Below are positions 1 through 22,655 of a stretch of DNA of 64,000 nt, in pieces. This stretch comes from Acidobacteriaceae bacterium. Lineage in GTDB: Bacteria > Acidobacteriota > Terriglobia > Terriglobales > Acidobacteriaceae. The notes under the pieces were generated by a model. It was not told where the DNA came from. It was given only the letters and a program-made list of their open reading frames with translations, and made no database searches. The DNA lies in assembly GCA_903642235.1 (NCBI GenBank), contig CAHJWL010000006.1:124001-188000 (forward strand). Direction: 5' to 3'. Numbering within the stretch: position 1 is the stretch's first letter; every line of letters starts with the position of its first letter. Made by a program: the position numbers and the translations under genes.

Positions 1-1535
1 TCGAGGGGGTTGGAGGGGGCGGGAGCGTTGGCGAGGATGTCGAGGAGCTCGCCGGCGGGGAGGCCGTCGATGTACTCGGGGTTATTGATGAGTTCGGCGG
101 CGGCGAGCTGGCGGGCGGGGTCGGACTCGGGGAGGACAAGGGCGCGGAGGAGCACGCGTTCGGTCTCGCTGGCGGGTTCGCGCGTGGGGGTGGAGCGGAT
201 GCTTTCGACCTTGGCGGCGGCGGCCTGGCGGATCTCCTGGCGAAGGATGGCGGACTCGATCGAGAGCTTCTGGGCGGCGTCGGCGGCGAACTCGTCGCGA
301 TGAAGGGCGTTGGGCATGCGGCGGATATGAGGGAGGAGGAAGTTCATGGCCTTGACCTTGGCTTCGGGGGTGCGGGCGGGGAAGAGCTGGCGGGCGCGGT
401 CGATGAGGTAGTCGGCGTGGCGTTTGGCACCGCGGAGGGCTGCCATGTAGGCCTCCATGCCGCGCTCGCGGACGAAGCGGTCGGGGTCGAGGCCGCCCTC
501 GAGCGCGACGACCTTGACCTCGAAGCCCTCTTCGGTGAGCAGCGCGATGGACTTCTCGGCGGCGGTGGCGCCGGCCTGGTCGGGGTCGAAGTTGACGACG
601 ACGCGGTGGGTGAAGCGGGAGAGAAGGCGGACCTGGTGCTCGGTAAAGGCGGTGCCGGAGGTGGCGAGGACGTTGCGGACGCCGGCCATGTAGACGGAGA
701 TGCAGTCCATCTGGCCTTCGACGAGGAGGGCGAAGTCATGCGAGCGCATGTCGGCCCTGGCCTTGTCGAGGTTGAAGAGCATATGGCCCTTCGAGAACAG
801 CGGGGTCTCGGGCGAGTTGAGGTACTTGGCGATGGGCCGGCCCTTGCCGTCGGTGTCGTCGAGGGCGCGGGCGGTGAAGGCGATGACCTTGCCCGCCTCA
901 TTCGCGATGGGGAAGGTGATGCGTTTGCGGAAGCGGGCGTACATCTGGCCCTGCGAGCCGTCGGCGCCTTCCTTCGCGCTGAAGAGGCCTGAGGCGCGCA
1001 TGGCCTCTTCTGGAAAGTGGGGGCGGAGGGCGTCGCGCATGCCGTTGAAGTCGTCGAGCGCGTAGCCGAGGCGAAAGGTCTTGATGGTCTCGGGGGTGAC
1101 GCCGCGGCCGGTGAGGTACTCACGGGCGCGGGCGGCTTCGGGGGAGTTGAGCGCCTGCTGGAAGTACTGGGTGGCGGCCTCGTGGATGTCGATCAGCTGG
1201 CGACGGATGCCGGCTTCGCGAGCCTCCTCGGGGGAGGAGAACTCGCGCTTTGGAAGAGGGATGCCGGCCTTGGTAGCGACGGAGCGGACGGCCTCGGGGA
1301 AGGGGATGTTCTCAAGCTTCATGACGAAGGTGAAGACGTCGCCTTTTTCGTGGCAGCCGAAGCAGTAGAAGTAGCCGTGGGCGGCGTTGACCGAGAAGGA
1401 GCCGGTCTTTTCTTTGTGGAAGGGGCAGAGGCCGGTGTAGTTCTGGGCGCCGGATTTTCGCAGGCGGACGTAGTCGCCGATGATCTTGACGATGTCGGCC
1501 TGCTGCTTGACGAGTTGGGCGAAGTTGTCGGGCAT
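1..1535 (-). CDS. dnaG: DNA primase DnaG (3' end cut by window edge)
   Basis: DnaG makes the RNA primers for Okazaki fragments and works with the replicative helicase. Reading leftwards from ATG at 1533-1535, about 511 codons are present and the stop lies beyond base 1. The N-terminal CHC2 zinc finger is complete (C37, H40, C58, C61; CPFHKEKTGSF then CFGCHEKGD). The TOPRIM catalytic core follows, with E273/D277 in LLVEGQMD and the acidic pair D317/D319 in NFDPDQAG. The C-terminal helicase-binding domain is only partly inside the window. In many bacteria dnaG and rpoD are neighbours in one operon. Here rpoD is nearby but on the opposite strand. Confidence 0.95.
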   Translation of the reverse strand, partial: MPDNFAQLVKQQADIVKIIGDYVRLRKSGAQNYTGLCPFHKEKTGSFSVNAAHGYFYCFGCHEKGDVFTFVMKLENIPFPEAVRSVATKAGIPLPKREFSSPEEAREAGIRRQLIDIHEAATQYFQQALNSPEAARAREYLTGRGVTPETIKTFRLGYALDDFNGMRDALRPHFPEEAMRASGLFSAKEGADGSQGQMYARFRKRITFPIANEAGKVIAFTARALDDTDGKGRPIAKYLNSPETPLFSKGHMLFNLDKARADMRSHDFALLVEGQMDCISVYMAGVRNVLATSGTAFTEHQVRLLSRFTHRVVVNFDPDQAGATAAEKSIALLTEEGFEVKVVALEGGLDPDRFVRERGMEAYMAALRGAKRHADYLIDRARQLFPARTPEAKVKAMNFLLPHIRRMPNALHRDEFAADAAQKLSIESAILRQEIRQAAAAKVESIRSTPTREPASETERVLLRALVLPESDPARQLAAAELINNPEYIDGLPAGELLDILANAPAPSNPL

Positions 1536-4164: not shown

Positions 4165-5886
<1,722 letters not shown>

Positions 5887-5958: not shown

Positions 5959-6261
5959 ATGGGTGAGATCGAAGCGATGAGCTCCTTGAACGAGCAGCAG
6001 CGGCTTTTGTTTCTGAACCAGATGTCCGCAAGCCGAAAGAGCGATGTCTCTGCAATCCTTCTTGCCTTCTTTCTCGGCAGCTTTGGAGCTCACCGGTTCT
6101 ATCTGGGTCAGACGGGATGGGGCATCCTCTATCTGCTGTTCTGCTGGACCTTCATTCCTCACCTGGTCTCTTTTGTTGAATGTTTTTTGCTTCCAGGCCG
6201 TGTCCGCCGCTATAACGACGAGCTTGCGTACGAGGTTGCCGCCCGGGTTCGCAGGGCGTAA
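5959..6261 (+). CDS. TM2-domain membrane protein
   Basis: A 100-aa protein with a TM2 domain. The motif FLGSFGAHRFYLGQTGWG at about residues 38-55 links the first helix (ILLAFFLGSF) to the second (ILYLLFCWTFIPHLVSFVE). The N-terminus is polar and probably cytoplasmic; the C-terminus is basic. No enzymatic role is known for these small domains, and the function here is unknown. ATG 5959 follows an AAGGAGAAGGA tract. It is flanked by terminators, so it is probably a single-gene transcript. Confidence 0.8.
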   Translation: MGEIEAMSSLNEQQRLLFLNQMSASRKSDVSAILLAFFLGSFGAHRFYLGQTGWGILYLLFCWTFIPHLVSFVECFLLPGRVRRYNDELAYEVAARVRRA

Positions 6262-6352: not shown

Positions 6353-6562
6353 TTATGCTTGCGCCGCTGGTACGAAGCCGTCACACCCACTGATCGGCGT
6401 CACCTTCAGGTGCAGGGACATCAGCTTGGGGTGGCCGCATTCGTCGAGTACAGCAGCATCCGCGCTCTTGCTGCTCAGAATGGACACCAAAACCTGGCTC
6501 TTGGCGTGGTTCTCGCCGAAGTGATTACAAAGTCCGCACTGTCCCTCTTGAACTGTCTGCAT
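6353..6562 (-). CDS. Small Cys-rich conserved protein, possible zinc ribbon
   Basis: A 69-aa protein starting at ATG 6562 behind AGAGGG. It contains CGLC near the N-terminus (QEGQCGLCNHFGE), a second Cys-Gly-His (DECGHPK), and a last Cys in ISGCDGF. Two Cys-x2-Cys/His-like clusters suggest metal binding. From memory, very similar short proteins occur in other acidobacteria, but no function is assigned. It ends at the shared terminator. Confidence 0.6.
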   Translation of the reverse strand: MQTVQEGQCGLCNHFGENHAKSQVLVSILSSKSADAAVLDECGHPKLMSLHLKVTPISGCDGFVPAAQA

Positions 6563-19085: not shown

Positions 19086-19093
19086 CAGGGCTC
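19086..19093. repeat. 8-bp target-site duplication, left copy
   Basis: CAGGGCTC directly abuts the left inverted repeat and is repeated exactly beside the right one. Eight bases is the duplication length expected for IS1595-family elements. Confidence 0.92.
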
Positions 19094-19118
19094 GCAGATT
19101 ATGCACTTGACACAGAAA
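19094..19118 (+). repeat. Left terminal inverted repeat (25 bp)
   Basis: Begins GCAGATTATGCACTTGACAC and ends with AGAAA. It is identical, as reverse complement, to 22623-22647. It contains the TTGACA used as -35 box of the transposase promoter. Confidence 0.95.
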
Positions 19119-19135
19119 CGCTAAATCGGTAAAGT
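19107..19135 (+). promoter_or_regulatory. Transposase promoter overlapping the inverted repeat
   Basis: TTGACA at 19107-19112, a 17-bp spacer, then TAAAGT at 19130-19135, twenty bases before ATG 19155. The -35 lies inside the terminal repeat, so transposase bound to the end could repress its own gene. Confidence 0.65.
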
Positions 19136-19154
19136 TAGGTTCAGTGAGGCAGTT

Positions 19155-20153
19155 ATGAACCTGATAGACGTAACCCGCACCTTCAAATCTGATGATGACT
19201 GCCTTGCCTATATGGAGACGATGCGCTGGCCCGAAGGCATCAAGTGCCCCACCTGCGGTAGCACCCATATCTCCAAGATCACTCGTAAGAGCAGCACCCG
19301 TTCTCGCAAGGCAGCAGAGGGTAAGACCCGCACGCACAGCGTTCGCACCCGCATTTACCAATGCTTAGAGAAGTGCACCATGAACTCGAAAGGCGTGATG
19401 GTAAACGCTCAGTTCTCTGCAACCTCCGGCACGATCTTCGCCGACTCCCATCTGCCTCTAACGACTTGGTTTATGGCAATGGCCATCATTGTTGATGCAA
19501 AGAAGAGCATTTCGGCGAATCAGCTAAAGGAACACCTCGGCATCGGTTCGTACCGCACCGCATGGTACATGGCTCATCGTATCCGTAAGGCAATGGAAGC
19601 AAAGACGTTTGAGAAGATGACCCGCATCGTTGAAATCGATGAGACGTACATCGGCGGCAAGGTTCGCACCAAAGACGGAAGCGGAGCCAAGATCAAGACC
19701 CGCGATAAGCAGGTTGTAGTTGGATTCAAGGAGCGTGGCGGGCGTGTTCGCCTACGACACGTCCCGAATGCTCAAATAGATACGCTGGGAAAGGTCATCA
19801 AGGAGAACGTTAGCCCTGATGTCATCGCCGTGATGACGGATGAGCACCCATCCTATCCCAGGGCATTCATGAACGCTGGGATTAACGGCCGTCGGCATCA
19901 CACCATCAATCATTCGCAGGGTCAGTATGTTGACGGCTTCGTTTGGACGAATGGTATTGAGTCGCACTTCGGCCTACTAAAACGCGGCATCGTAGGCAGC
20001 TTCCATCGTGTCTCGATAAAGCACCTGCACCGCTACCTGAGCGAGTTTGAGTACCGCTTCAATGCTCGCAAGGCTGCGGATCGCTTTAGCATGACGCTGG
20101 GCGAGATGATGCGGACAGAGACTATGCCTTATTCGGATCTGACGGAGGAGTAG
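19155..20153 (+). CDS. IS1595-family DDE transposase
   Basis: A 332-aa transposase that cuts and joins the element ends. The N-terminal zinc ribbon is C31-x2-C34 with C70-x3-C74. The RNase H-like core has D162 in VEIDETYIGGK, D229 in MTDEHPSY and E269 in TNGIESHFGLLKRG, the family pattern ending in a basic LLKRG. A C-terminal YLSEFEYRFNARK segment is also typical. ATG 19155 follows GAGG. Three isoleucines are coded by AUA (residues 4 and 208, and the Ile in the VSIKH segment near 287). Its last 32 bases overlap a short antisense gene. Confidence 0.93.
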   Translation: MNLIDVTRTFKSDDDCLAYMETMRWPEGIKCPTCGSTHISKITRKSSTRSRKAAEGKTRTHSVRTRIYQCLEKCTMNSKGVMVNAQFSATSGTIFADSHLPLTTWFMAMAIIVDAKKSISANQLKEHLGIGSYRTAWYMAHRIRKAMEAKTFEKMTRIVEIDETYIGGKVRTKDGSGAKIKTRDKQVVVGFKERGGRVRLRHVPNAQIDTLGKVIKENVSPDVIAVMTDEHPSYPRAFMNAGINGRRHHTINHSQGQYVDGFVWTNGIESHFGLLKRGIVGSFHRVSIKHLHRYLSEFEYRFNARKAADRFSMTLGEMMRTETMPYSDLTEE

Positions 20154-20274
20154 GCGCGGGGATTATCTTCCCCGCCTTGCCTTCCCCCTTTATCGTCTTC
20201 GCAGGTTCCGGCCGGCTCTGCATCATCTTATGCAGCAGCGCGTCGAACTGCTCCTTGTCAACTTGCAGACTCAA
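20122..20274 (-). CDS. 50-aa passenger protein, overlapping the transposase 3' end
   Basis: Starts at TTG 20274 with AGGAGG at 20281-20286, six bases away, a strong ribosome-binding site. The protein begins with SLQVDKEQFDALLHKMMQS after the initiator and is followed by a basic Lys/Pro tail (KTIKGEGKAGKIIPAP). Small proteins of this pattern beside transposases are familiar to me, but have no known function. Its start overlaps the end of the 62-aa gene by 17 bases, implying coupling, and its end runs 32 bases into the transposase on the other strand. Two codons are AUA. Confidence 0.65.
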   Translation of the reverse strand: MSLQVDKEQFDALLHKMMQSRPEPAKTIKGEGKAGKIIPAPTPPSDPNKA

Positions 20275-20446
20275 GAATGTCCTCCTTCGGGAAACCCAGT
20301 CCAGATGGCATTTCCCCCACTAAATGTGCGCGCTCGTACTCCTCCTCAGCGCATACCACGATCGTTTTTTCTCGGATGGCCAGTATTCGGCGGTACGCGG
20401 TTTCGCCTCCGTAAAGTTTTACGCTAACTCTTTCACCAACAATCAT
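20258..20446 (-). CDS. 62-aa passenger protein, hypothetical
   Basis: A compact beta-rich sequence (IVGERVSVKLYGGETAYRR, then ILAIREKTIVVCAEEEYERA) suggesting a small barrel-like fold. ATG 20446 has AGGAGGT at 20451-20457, so translation is well supported. It forms a two-gene minus-strand unit with the 50-aa gene. Family not recognised. A link to transposition control is a guess from position only. Confidence 0.65.
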   Translation of the reverse strand: MIVGERVSVKLYGGETAYRRILAIREKTIVVCAEEEYERAHLVGEMPSGLGFPKEDILESAS

Positions 20447-20504
20447 TTCTACCTCCTAACCTCGAATTGAAGGTAGCTACCGCAAACGCGTACCGCAAGA
20501 TTAT

Positions 20505-20585
20505 GTACTAGGATTTCCACAGAAATCCTAGAGTACGACATGTACGACATGCTATCTTGACATTACGGCACGCGGTATCTATGTC
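20505..20585. promoter_or_regulatory. Palindrome, tandem repeat and candidate promoter between divergent units
   Basis: Perfect palindrome CTAGGATTTC-CACA-GAAATCCTAG at 20508-20531. A tandem 9-bp repeat TACGACATG follows at 20534-20542 and 20543-20551. Then TTGACA at 20557-20562, 17 bp from TATGTC at 20580-20585. The arrangement looks like operator plus promoter for the DUF5343 gene, shared with the divergent small genes. Confidence 0.5.
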
Positions 20586-20599
20586 GTGGAGGTTTGGAC

Positions 20600-21292
20600 A
20601 TGGCAAGTGACACCGCAGCTTTGACGCCAGCGTACCTACCGTGGGCGACTTTCATCTCTGCCCTCGATAATCTGCAAACGCATGGTATTCCCGGAACAGG
20701 TGTATTAGACAAATCGTTATGGGACACGCAATCTGGTGCGATGCAGGGCCAGATCGTAGTGGCCTTTCGGTTCATGGGGCTTATCGATGAAAAGAATCGT
20801 GTTCTTCCACCACTGCAGCCTTTAGTAAGAGCTAAATCTGACGAGCGCAAGCCGCTGCTACGAGAGATTGTCGAGGAGAAATACCGCTCCGTGATAACGC
20901 GTGACCTGATGACGATCTCAAGTGGACAGCTTGAAGACGCGATTCGCAGCCTAGGAGTGACAGGTTCGACATTGGAGAGAGCTGTACGGTTTTTCATCAA
21001 AGCATGTCGCGAACTTGGAATTCCCTTATCTAAGCGGTTTTCAGAAAAGGTACGGTCGAGTGGATCGCCACGTAAAGCTCGTCGAATTACAGTTCCTCGT
21101 AGAGAGTCACTCGTAGAGGAAGGTGGCGATCAACAAGCTCCTCCTTCCCGTGCATGGGAAGACCGTCTGCTGGAGAAGTTCCCCACATTCGATCCCGCCT
21201 GGCCAGATGTTCTTAAGACTAAGTGGTTTGAATCTTTCGAACGCCTCATGCGGGCAGATAAAGGTTTGCAAGGGAATGGAGGCCCCTCATGA
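20600..21292 (+). CDS. DUF5343 family protein
   Basis: A 230-aa protein with the N-terminal pattern of DUF5343 (AYLPWATFISALDNLQTHGIP, then QGQIVVAFRFMGLIDEKNRV), a helical winged-helix-like region. TGSTLERAVRFFIKACRELG follows. A basic linker (SPRKARRITVPRRES) leads to a C-terminal segment ending in a DPAWPDVLKTKWFESFERLM helix. It is possibly a nucleic-acid-binding or regulatory protein, but no activity is established. ATG 20600 has GGAGG at 20588-20592. One codon is AUA. Hairpins follow its stop. Confidence 0.8.
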   Translation: MASDTAALTPAYLPWATFISALDNLQTHGIPGTGVLDKSLWDTQSGAMQGQIVVAFRFMGLIDEKNRVLPPLQPLVRAKSDERKPLLREIVEEKYRSVITRDLMTISSGQLEDAIRSLGVTGSTLERAVRFFIKACRELGIPLSKRFSEKVRSSGSPRKARRITVPRRESLVEEGGDQQAPPSRAWEDRLLEKFPTFDPAWPDVLKTKWFESFERLMRADKGLQGNGGPS

Positions 21293-21308
21293 TAAGGAGG
21301 GTTATAGC

Positions 21309-21395
21309 CCGTCGCCGTCACACTCACCGCGACGGCGGGTACAAGCAAAAAGGCTCGAATCGCTGAAGTCCCTGGCAGGACGCGATTCGAGCCTT
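21309..21395. other. Two hairpins between DUF5343 gene and tRNA
   Basis: First stem CCGTCGC/GCGACGG at 21309-21335. Second is a perfect 14-bp stem, AAGGCTCGAATCGC (21350-21363) with GCGATTCGAGCCTT (21382-21395), with a nested GTCC/GGAC in its loop. Read on the minus strand the second stem is followed by TTTTTGC, so it may terminate antisense transcription. On the plus strand it sits 24 bases before the tRNA and could guide processing. Confidence 0.55.
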
Positions 21396-21419
21396 GGTGG
21401 GGCTCTCAAGTCGTTCTAT

Positions 21420-21510
21420 GGAGAGGTACTACGCTGGGGCCAGCGAAGGAGCCTTATAAGCTCTGAACGGCAGTGTTGACGCACTGCGGGTTCGACTCCC
21501 TGCCTCTCCG
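21420..21510 (+). tRNA. Non-canonical 9/3 tRNA, serine-like body, anticodon UAU
   Basis: Ninety-one bases fold into a cloverleaf with a 9-bp acceptor stem and 3-bp T-stem. The acceptor is GGAGAGGTA (21420-21428) with TGCCTCTCC (21501-21509), one T-G pair. The D-stem CGCTG/CAGCG has a 4-base loop GGGC, as in tRNA-Sec. The anticodon stem is GGAGC/GCTCT with loop CTTATAA, anticodon TAT at 21455-21457. A long variable arm is GCAGTG/CACTGC. The T-arm is GGG-TTCGACT-CCC. Discriminator is G and no CCA is encoded. The normal 7/5 fold fails because T-stem pairs mismatch. Long variable arm and G discriminator are serine identity features, yet UAU would read isoleucine codon AUA. It resembles the 8/4 and 9/3 allo-tRNAs reported in some bacteria. 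Confidence 0.85.
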
Positions 21511-21557
21511 CTCCCTCAATAGTAGGACAACCAAGCGAAAATTAAAAGAGGGCATTC

Positions 21558-22451
21558 ATGAAAACTGCTTTTCTTCTGCTCCTTATGTGTACTTGCGCGA
21601 CACTCGACGCTCAGAAAACCCACGTTCGATTGGCTTCGCAACCACACACAGCTCTTCGAGAACGTTTTGACAATCTCGTGTGTGCGATAGCGTTCATTCA
21701 GACCGAACGCGGTTCAGGAACAGGCTTCTTTGTTAACGCTCAAGGCGATCTCGTCACAGCAGCTCACGTCGTGAGCACAAAAATGTTCAAAGCCCTGCCG
21801 ACGAATCAAATTGATTTCGACGTGATTCCCGACAGCCAAATCTTCGTCACAGCAAATGGGCAGAAAAAAGTTCAAGTCAACGTAGCGGCCACAGACATCG
21901 ACAAAACAGAGTCGGCCACAGACTTAACCTACATTCACACTTCGATCCATCCGAAGTGCTTTATACCGCTATCAAACTCAAAAGACGCGAGCACGGGGGA
22001 TCACCTGATAAGCATCGGATTTCCCGGAATTGATATGGGGAACCCCATACTTTATGAAGGCTTTCTAAGCGGACGTTTTCCCCACCCACCTAATGTCGCC
22101 GTGGCAGTCATCAACGGAAATGCCATTGCGGCAACTTACGAAGTTCTAAAGGTACAGATGCCTATCACGCCCGGTGCTTCTGGATCGCCGATCATTGACG
22201 ATTCGGGACGCGCGATAGGCGTCGTCTCAGAATCTCCGATCATTTGGACTGAGGACTTGCAGAAGATCACTTCTGTGGCGGGCACGGGAAGTGGTATCGC
22301 CCTATCTGGTTTCGATGTTGTGAAGACCTTGGGGCAACTCGCGCTGGTTGTTCGGGAGTTTGAGTCACCGGGGTCTGGCTATGCTGTCCCGCTTTCGGGC
22401 TTGAATCCCACGCGGGTCGCAACTCAAACTGCTTCCATTGATGCCCGTTGA
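21558..22451 (+). CDS. Secreted trypsin-like serine protease (passenger)
   Basis: A 297-aa protease with signal peptide (about residues 1-18, MKTAFLLLLMCTCATLDA). Catalytic residues fit a trypsin/HtrA-type fold: H70 in LVTAAHVV, D122 in SATDLTYIH, S208 in TPGASGSPI. There is no PDZ domain, so it is a bare protease domain plus a short tail. Expected location is periplasmic or external. ATG 21558 follows AGAGGG. It lies 47 bases after the tRNA and may be co-transcribed with it. Five isoleucines (44, 136, 151, 164, 220) are coded by AUA, the codon the tRNA would read. Substrate unknown. Confidence 0.85.
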   Translation: MKTAFLLLLMCTCATLDAQKTHVRLASQPHTALRERFDNLVCAIAFIQTERGSGTGFFVNAQGDLVTAAHVVSTKMFKALPTNQIDFDVIPDSQIFVTANGQKKVQVNVAATDIDKTESATDLTYIHTSIHPKCFIPLSNSKDASTGDHLISIGFPGIDMGNPILYEGFLSGRFPHPPNVAVAVINGNAIAATYEVLKVQMPITPGASGSPIIDDSGRAIGVVSESPIIWTEDLQKITSVAGTGSGIALSGFDVVKTLGQLALVVREFESPGSGYAVPLSGLNPTRVATQTASIDAR

Positions 22452-22501
22452 TAGTCACCATTGAACTGGCATCTACCACTACGTAAGCACTGGACGTTCC
22501 T

Positions 22502-22531
22502 TGCGGCGCTGGTACTTTCGCCAGCGCCGCA
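22502..22531 (+). terminator. Hairpin after the protease gene
   Basis: Perfect 11-bp stem TGCGGCGCTGG / CCAGCGCCGCA around TACTTTCG, fifty bases after the protease stop and inside the transposon right end. No T-run follows, so termination strength is uncertain. Confidence 0.5.
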
Positions 22532-22622
22532 TAAGGAAAGACAAAACCGACTATAGAAATCCACTTCATAGGCGCACGGCGAATTGTACGCTGCCCTGTC
22601 ACGGTCTTCATAGTTTACCTGC

Positions 22623-22647
22623 TTTCTGTGTCAAGTGCATAATCTGC
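22623..22647 (-). repeat. Right terminal inverted repeat (25 bp)
   Basis: Exact reverse complement of 19094-19118. It marks the outer right edge of the transposon. Confidence 0.95.
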
Positions 22648-22655
22648 CAGGGCTC
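22648..22655. repeat. 8-bp target-site duplication, right copy
   Basis: CAGGGCTC, identical to 19086-19093. Confidence 0.92.

Follow-up and report, generated by a model that had tools for sequence, protein, structure and literature searches.

Allo-tRNAs (Mukai et al., 2017, as covered in a later review, PMC7609411) are known from Acidobacteria and combine an 8/4 or 9/3 branch, a long variable arm and serine identity with non-serine anticodons. According to the review, UAU is among the most predominant anticodons of the 8/4 type, 9/3 allo-tRNAs are listed with Arg, Leu and ochre anticodons, and CUC and UUA codons are decoded as serine by allo-tRNAs in E. coli (PMC7609411). The same source describes a degenerate allo-tRNA(UAU) type without activity in E. 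coli, for which a non-translational role or decay has already been suggested in print, and a UAU pseudogene in Edaphobacter C40 that overlaps a transposon-related ORF. The 9/3 allo-tRNAs carry SerRS identity elements, and a long D-stem, as in tRNA-Sec, is an allo-tRNA feature (PMC7590224). The literature that we searched yielded no link of allo-tRNAs to transposase codons. The occurrence of allo-tRNA(UAU) near transposon genes is thus known, and the match to transposase codons described here is apparently new. Among mobile elements, IS1595-family insertion sequences duplicate 8 bp of their target and can carry passenger genes, and some phages encode suppressor tRNAs of their own and have reassigned stop codons. 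The bldA tRNA of Streptomyces, a true leucine tRNA of the host, gates expression via TTA codons.

The window analyzed here, a 64,000-nucleotide stretch of the genome of an Acidobacteriaceae bacterium, contains a 3,554-bp IS1595-family transposon (19094-22647; Table 1). Its ends match and the 8-bp duplication CAGGGCTC flanks both sides, so that the tRNA gene lies on a transposon, as an earlier note on this DNA had claimed. Family membership is indicated by the DDE_Tnp_IS1595 and zinc ribbon domains of the transposase together with the terminal repeats and the 8-bp duplication. The gene order is transposase, 232-aa ORF, conserved stretch, tRNA and trypsin-like protease. This element and its tRNA-bearing relatives resemble other IS1595 elements in their transposase domains, terminal repeats, 8-bp duplications and variable cargo; unlike those, they have a tRNA gene beside the transposase, which is nearly the sole other gene in the smallest elements read.

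Table 1. Features of the IS1595-family transposon, in positions of the window.
Feature	Position	Strand	Remarks
Left target-site duplication CAGGGCTC	19086..19093	.	8 bp
Left terminal inverted repeat GCAGATTATGCACTTGACACAGAAA	19094..19118	+	25 bp
IS1595-family transposase, 332 aa	19155..20153	+	Pfam DDE_Tnp_IS1595 E 8.3e-32, Zn_ribbon_IS1595 E 1.6e-10
AUA codon, transposase residue 4	19164..19166	+	AUA in 25/32 tRNA(UAU)+ elements; UUA in 6/6 tRNA(UAA)+ elements
AUA codon, transposase residue 208	19776..19778	+	Sporadic site, 5/32; Ser/Ala-like column
AUA codon, transposase residue 288	20016..20018	+	VS-AUA-KHL; AUA 26/32, UUA 6/6
232-aa ORF, DUF5343-like	20594..21292	+	PF17278 label on distant relatives
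Conserved stretch before tRNA	21289..21400	+	Two hairpins, possible pseudoknot by eye; small ORF ATG ATA AGG AGG
9/3 class II tRNA gene	21420..21510	+	Anticodon UAU, G73, CCA not encoded
Cargo: trypsin-like serine protease, 297 aa	21558..22451	+	Trypsin_2 E 3.6e-17
Right terminal inverted repeat	22623..22647	-	25 bp
Right target-site duplication CAGGGCTC	22648..22655	.	8 bp

PF17278, which we take to be DUF5343, was a precomputed label on 5 of the 23 proteins among the matches listed for the 232-aa ORF, the more distant ones, and direct Pfam scans of the ORF itself gave no match to PF17278. Scanning genome contigs with the DUF5343-like protein returned a single distant locus only, in Lysobacter antibioticus, and viral contigs scanned with the window transposase gave no match. 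The stretch from the stop codon of the DUF5343-like ORF to the tRNA is conserved in the window, in L011 (after 7078), in L028 and in L029 (L numbers designate loci of our sample). Its consensus fold from three sequences had a covariation term of +0.13, weak support for a structure. The possible pseudoknot would pair the loop CUCACC with GGUGAG, and the second codon of the small ORF is AUA in both the window and L011. Pairing of the tRNA anticodon loop with the Shine-Dalgarno-like ATGATAAGGAGG located 3' of the DUF5343-like ORF was rejected, the pairing being shorter in L011 (by eye, window versus L011). The cargo that follows the tRNA in L028 (3868-4624, minus strand) encodes Gp49-like and HTH proteins (Pfam), a toxin-antitoxin make-up of the HigBA type that may be the origin of the published toxin-antitoxin guess.

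The tRNA fold was read directly from the DNA. The acceptor stem (GGAGAGGTA/TGCCTCTCC) contains nine pairs, with one G.U at position 8, and the T-stem (GGG/CCC) contains three. The D-stem CGCTG/CAGCG has 5 bp and a 4-base loop (GGGC), the anticodon stem GGAGC/GCTCT presents the anticodon UAU in the loop CTTATAA, the variable arm is long (GCAGTGT..GCACTGC) and the discriminator is G. The stem lengths, D-loop, variable arm, discriminator and anticodon given in the earlier note were all found in this reading, and the T-stem mismatch that it claimed for a 7/5 fold is real, as only three of the five T-stem pairs then form. ARAGORN labeled the gene tRNA-Ile(tat) at 21420-21511. Rfam at gathering scores gave no matches in the window, its tRNA model missing the gene, and the 46 matches of that model in the host genome do not include the tRNA(UAU) of the element. 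The gene strand has a folding energy of -42.6 kcal/mol (z -2.8), a stability reached by 3 of 200 shuffled sequences. In 886,736 bases of sequence shuffled in two-base steps, a scanner for class II UAU tRNAs returned no match 78 nt long or longer. A DNA search found one copy of the gene in the 3.79-Mb host genome.

The 9/3 split of the 12-bp branch, the long variable arm, G73, the non-serine anticodon UAU and the long D-stem (5 bp, loop of 4) are all features of allo-tRNAs. Further likenesses are the serine identity, the occurrence in Acidobacteria and the transposon-related neighbor of the published UAU pseudogene. The window tRNA differs in joining a 9/3 body to UAU, a combination absent from the anticodons that the review lists for 9/3 (Arg, Leu, ochre). 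Its acceptor starts with GGAGAG and ends in G73, like those of three host tRNA-Ser; the only other host tRNA-Ser starts with GGAGGG and likewise has G73, versus A73 in all five host tRNA-Leu, and the serine-like body that had been proposed is thereby supported. Among 30 tRNA(UAU) sequences, G73 is present in 28, the window's among them, and lacking in two. The branch is split 8/4 in 17 of these, 7/5 in 10 and 9/3 in three, and, unlike in described allo-tRNAs, the 7/5 bodies seem to do the same job in these elements. The UUAU core of the anticodon loop occurs in 30 of 30 but is part of the scanner rule, and the anticodon stem is mismatched in some element tRNAs (e.g., L011 and L033). From its sequence features, SerRS likely charges the tRNA(UAU).

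Relatives were collected by several searches. Of 200 genomes of the Acidobacteriaceae family searched at the DNA level, six matched, the window's own included. Two further tRNAs matched over their full length: one has UAU and belongs to an element organized as in the window (L003/L011), and the other has GCA (L004/L012); the other three genomes matched at the 24-base 3' end only, of tRNA-Ser where ARAGORN could read it. The 232-aa protein matched 10 of 200 genomes and the terminal-repeat core 7 of 299, and these searches added elements, with the transposase present or absent, whose class II tRNA has the loop sequence UUAUA. Transposase searches were made in 299, 396 and 300 genomes, in samples that overlap, and surroundings were fetched mostly for the best-scoring matches of longer lists, so the sample leans to the window's kin. 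The resulting 104 transposases with context comprise 32 with tRNA(UAU), 6 with tRNA(UAA), 47 with neither and 19 without readable status (contig ends, short flanks). Counts by tRNA status below exclude these 19, and the 53 others are the transposases without tRNA(UAU). The tRNA(UAU) status was called from the DNA, blind to transposase codons, with the exception of L133, a 77-nt scanner match without a cloverleaf that was moved by hand from tRNA-positive to tRNA-negative. Of 38 elements, 36 have the tRNA within their ends, and a perfect 8-bp duplication flanks 27 of these.

Several loci contain additional tRNAs. In L086 the tRNA(UAU) has a class II neighbor whose anticodon is ochre (UUA; 1365-1450, minus strand); the transposase stop codon there is TAG, and no direct link to the ochre tRNA was seen in this locus. 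In L216 a GUC anticodon is found on a class II tRNA that has A73 (6476-6561, plus strand); the IS1595 transposase nearby has neither AUA nor UUA at the fixed sites. L012 has a 9/3 tRNA with the Cys anticodon GCA (5491-5575, minus strand) beside what appears by eye to be another transposase type. About 18 bases upstream of the tRNA(UAU) in L047 is a class I tRNA-like gene with an indistinct anticodon (6008-6079, minus strand), which resembles the tRNA polycistrons mentioned in the review. A DUF5343-like gene accompanies an allo-tRNA(UAU)-like gene in L029 (7914-7998, plus strand), L033 (7561-7642, minus strand) and L031 (6493-6577, plus strand), with no relative of the window transposase in the fetched stretches. 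L029 and L033 have a terminal repeat in common, and the anticodon stem of L033 is decayed.

Transposases encoded beside a tRNA(UAU) have AUA at particular residues. AUA is present at residue 288 in 26 of the 32 as against none of the 53 others (p 2e-16 by Fisher's test, which ignores kinship), at residue 4 in 25/32 versus 3/53, and at residue 280 in 20/32 versus 1/53. The window transposase itself has AUA at residues 4, 208 and 288. Residues 280 and 288 are located 11 and 19 residues past E269 of the motif NGIESHF, which we take to be the catalytic glutamate. At least three AUA codons occur in 30 of the 32 transposases with tRNA(UAU) (range 2-7) versus 5 of the 53 others, the five exceptions having 3-5 AUA codons (L214, L216, L151, L153, and L141). 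The review section on allo-tRNAs gives no natural target codons, whereas here the matching codon is fixed in the transposase of the element.

One clade without tRNA(UAU) has UUA at residues 4 and 288 in 7/7 members (tree by a quick method, AUA columns dropped). The prediction that this clade carries a class II tRNA(UAA) was tested with ARAGORN and held in all six readable elements; the contig of the seventh member, L196, ends just past the transposase. The five tRNA(UAA) sequences examined all have a long variable arm and G73, as against A73 in the host tRNA-Leu(UAA). In the six elements, 12 of 13 UUA occurrences are at residues 4 and 288, and none of the six AUA codons is at the three sites, Ile-type columns accounting for four of them. 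The change of triplet to UUA in the clade with tRNA(UAA) led us to reject a conserved DNA motif as the source of the AUA triplets. With unreadable rows placed among the others, tRNA(UAU) status changes 13 times over the tree, and strongly supported branches make at least eight of these changes unavoidable. Well-supported branches provide only four independent pairs, of which on average 1.7 (residue 4), 2.4 (residue 288) and 3.0 (residue 280) agree; for residue 280 an opposed pair appears in a few random pairings, and the number of pairs is too small for significance. Taken together, we conclude that the tRNA of the element most likely reads the AUA codons of its own transposase, with serine as the amino acid predicted from sequence. 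The transposase as likely target is a point absent from the earlier note.

To ask which amino acid fits the matching codons, the columns were scored against profiles of relatives. Ser or Ala gave the best scores at the 28 columns in which AUA is sporadic among tRNA(UAU) transposases, well ahead of Ile, and these columns differ from Ile-only columns (permutation p < 1/20,000); control codons (ATT, ATC, Ser and others) recovered their own residue. Mean log(I/S) was -0.81 over the 24 columns with at most three AUA, compared with +2.21 for ATT, +1.0 for ATC and -1.39 for Ser, and these columns showed no difference from Ser columns (p 0.15). Ser ranked first of 20 residues in a first, smaller test, from which L092 was excluded. 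With more data and all 31 columns, Ala and Thr were just ahead of Ser; this profile included five tRNA(UAA) elements and excluded the five exceptions named above, which were kept in the site and Ile-column counts. A later analysis left out the three fixed sites and the tRNA(UAA) elements; of its three profiles, two ranked Ser highest and the third ranked Ala highest.

Codon usage at conserved sites was also compared. In 18 Ile-type columns (30% threshold), AUA accounts for 2/304 Ile codons in elements with tRNA(UAU) versus 30/445 elsewhere (p 2e-5); the difference is not significant at the stricter thresholds of 50% (2/94 versus 8/140, p 0.32) and 70% (0/32 versus 4/51, p 0.16). At Leu sites of the tRNA(UAA) clade UUA accounts for 0/120, with p values of 0.045, 0.11 and 0.16 over the column thresholds. 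At the fixed sites, relatives without tRNA(UAU) are Ile/Val-like at residues 4 (log I/S +2.3 to +3.8) and 280 (+4.1), and Ala/Lys/Val/Thr-like at residue 288. Elements with the tRNA that do not use AUA at the site in question have Arg, Ala or Cys at residue 4, Val, Tyr, Asn or Leu at 280 and Val, Gly or Ala at 288, and Ser codons never replace AUA at 280 or 288 in such elements. Residue 280 is Thr or Asn in the tRNA(UAA) clade, and L214, without the tRNA, has Ser (TCA) at residue 4. Seven elements without the tRNA that lie near or inside the tRNA-bearing part of the tree have Ile or Val at residue 4 and Val, Thr or His at 288, and never Ser. Transposases without serine appear able to move, because 25 of 47 elements without the tRNA, including six of those seven, have perfect duplications. 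Serine is thus predicted from tRNA identity and the sporadic sites, and the signal at the fixed sites is mixed.

The host encodes TilS, and its 45 distinct tRNAs, read at all 46 listed places, include three with CAU, one of which is presumably tRNA-Ile2; none of the 45 has the anticodon UAU of the element's own gene. Given TilS and this CAU tRNA, AUA is expected to remain Ile in host genes, where it is rare (34 of 14,491 codons in 30 window ORFs). The window protease contains five AUA codons, all at positions where 75 listed relatives mostly carry I, V or L, and the single AUA of the DUF5343-like ORF is at a position where 15 relatives carry L, I, V or M. AUA at such positions in both genes speaks against codon reassignment across the whole gene set, and because of it any serine reading there would be partial or tolerated. 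AUA decoding is probably mixed in the host cell. The earlier claim of serine at AUA therefore gains support from the transposase codons but does not stand as general decoding, the AUA codons of the protease being Ile-like and the AUA machinery of the host being kept.

The DNA itself shows the cloverleaf of the tRNA, both ends of the element, AUA codons in the transposase frame, their association with tRNA(UAU) across relatives and the change to UUA together with tRNA(UAA). In our main reading, to which we assign a probability of about 0.6, the tRNA(UAU) of this IS1595 transposon is charged with serine and reads AUA4 and AUA288 of its own transposase. SerRS would charge the element tRNA and serine would be inserted at the transposase AUA codons, in competition with the lysidine-containing tRNA-Ile2 of the host, such that AUA would be read as a mixture. 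Transposase with Ser at both sites would be the competent form, and transposition would be both dependent on and throttled by the element's own weak tRNA, which would keep that form scarce. We favor this arrangement because the sites stayed fixed through a codon change, Ile sites seldom use AUA, and in five small elements (1.6-1.9 kb) the transposase is followed by no ORF longer than 77 aa. Somewhat short of even odds, in our estimate, is the broader proposal of an IS1595 clade with a private, switchable sense-codon code, in which the UAU or UAA anticodon of each element's serine tRNA fits the codon at two fixed transposase residues, only protein made with the element's own tRNA works and codon and anticodon have changed together as a key-and-lock control. 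As with phage suppressor tRNAs, the tRNA of a mobile element would alter the reading of its own genes; unlike in phages, this would involve a sense codon, few fixed residues, a transposon of ∼1.6-4.8 kb and probably ambiguous decoding.

The main rival reverses the role of serine: the transposase would be competent with Ile at its AUA sites (or Leu at its UUA sites), and accumulated Ser-tRNA would poison the enzyme and limit copy number. Most relatives without the tRNA are indeed hydrophobic at residues 4 and 280, 25 of the 47 elements without the tRNA have perfect duplications, and a joint switch of codon and anticodon would be expected here too. We nevertheless consider this unlikely, since AUA recurs at two or three constant sites and is nearly absent from conserved Ile sites, sporadic AUA codons are in Ser/Ala-like columns, and a weak tRNA would presumably be a weak brake. 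A lower probability still is given to a gate on codon supply, in which the element would supply the tRNA required by a codon that the host seldom uses, such as AUA, and the inserted amino acid would matter little. A rare codon and its tRNA would then gate expression as in bldA, but the tRNA here is element-borne and serine-type rather than isoleucine-type, and the tRNA(UAA), with G73 in 5/5, lacks the A73 of a UUA-reading leucine tRNA of the bldA type. The same residues are also concerned in both codon clades, and at ordinary sites both codons are rare, as the Ile and Leu column counts indicate.

The mismatched anticodon stems in some copies and the inactivity in E. coli of the degenerate type (PMC7609411) would suit an RNA with a role in regulation or processing, or a passenger in decay; this we regard as improbable, since the in-frame codon follows the anticodon, and does so for two anticodons. 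Charging with isoleucine, by which AUA would simply mean Ile, has behind it the ARAGORN label, which rests on the anticodon, and the Ile-like residue 280, and is hardly credible against a class II body with G73 like host tRNA-Ser, the rarity of AUA at Ile columns, and a sister tRNA(UAA) that also has G73 versus A73 in host tRNA-Leu.

If the transposon's tRNA does deliver serine to the AUA codons of its own transposase, allo-tRNAs would gain a natural target; the review, in the section concerned, leaves their natural job as a hypothesis (PMC7609411). A small mobile element would then keep its own meaning for a sense codon within a host that uses the standard code, and codon reassignment via ambiguous decoding, an old problem, would become testable in a two-gene system. 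Transposition in these elements would be controlled at the decoding step.
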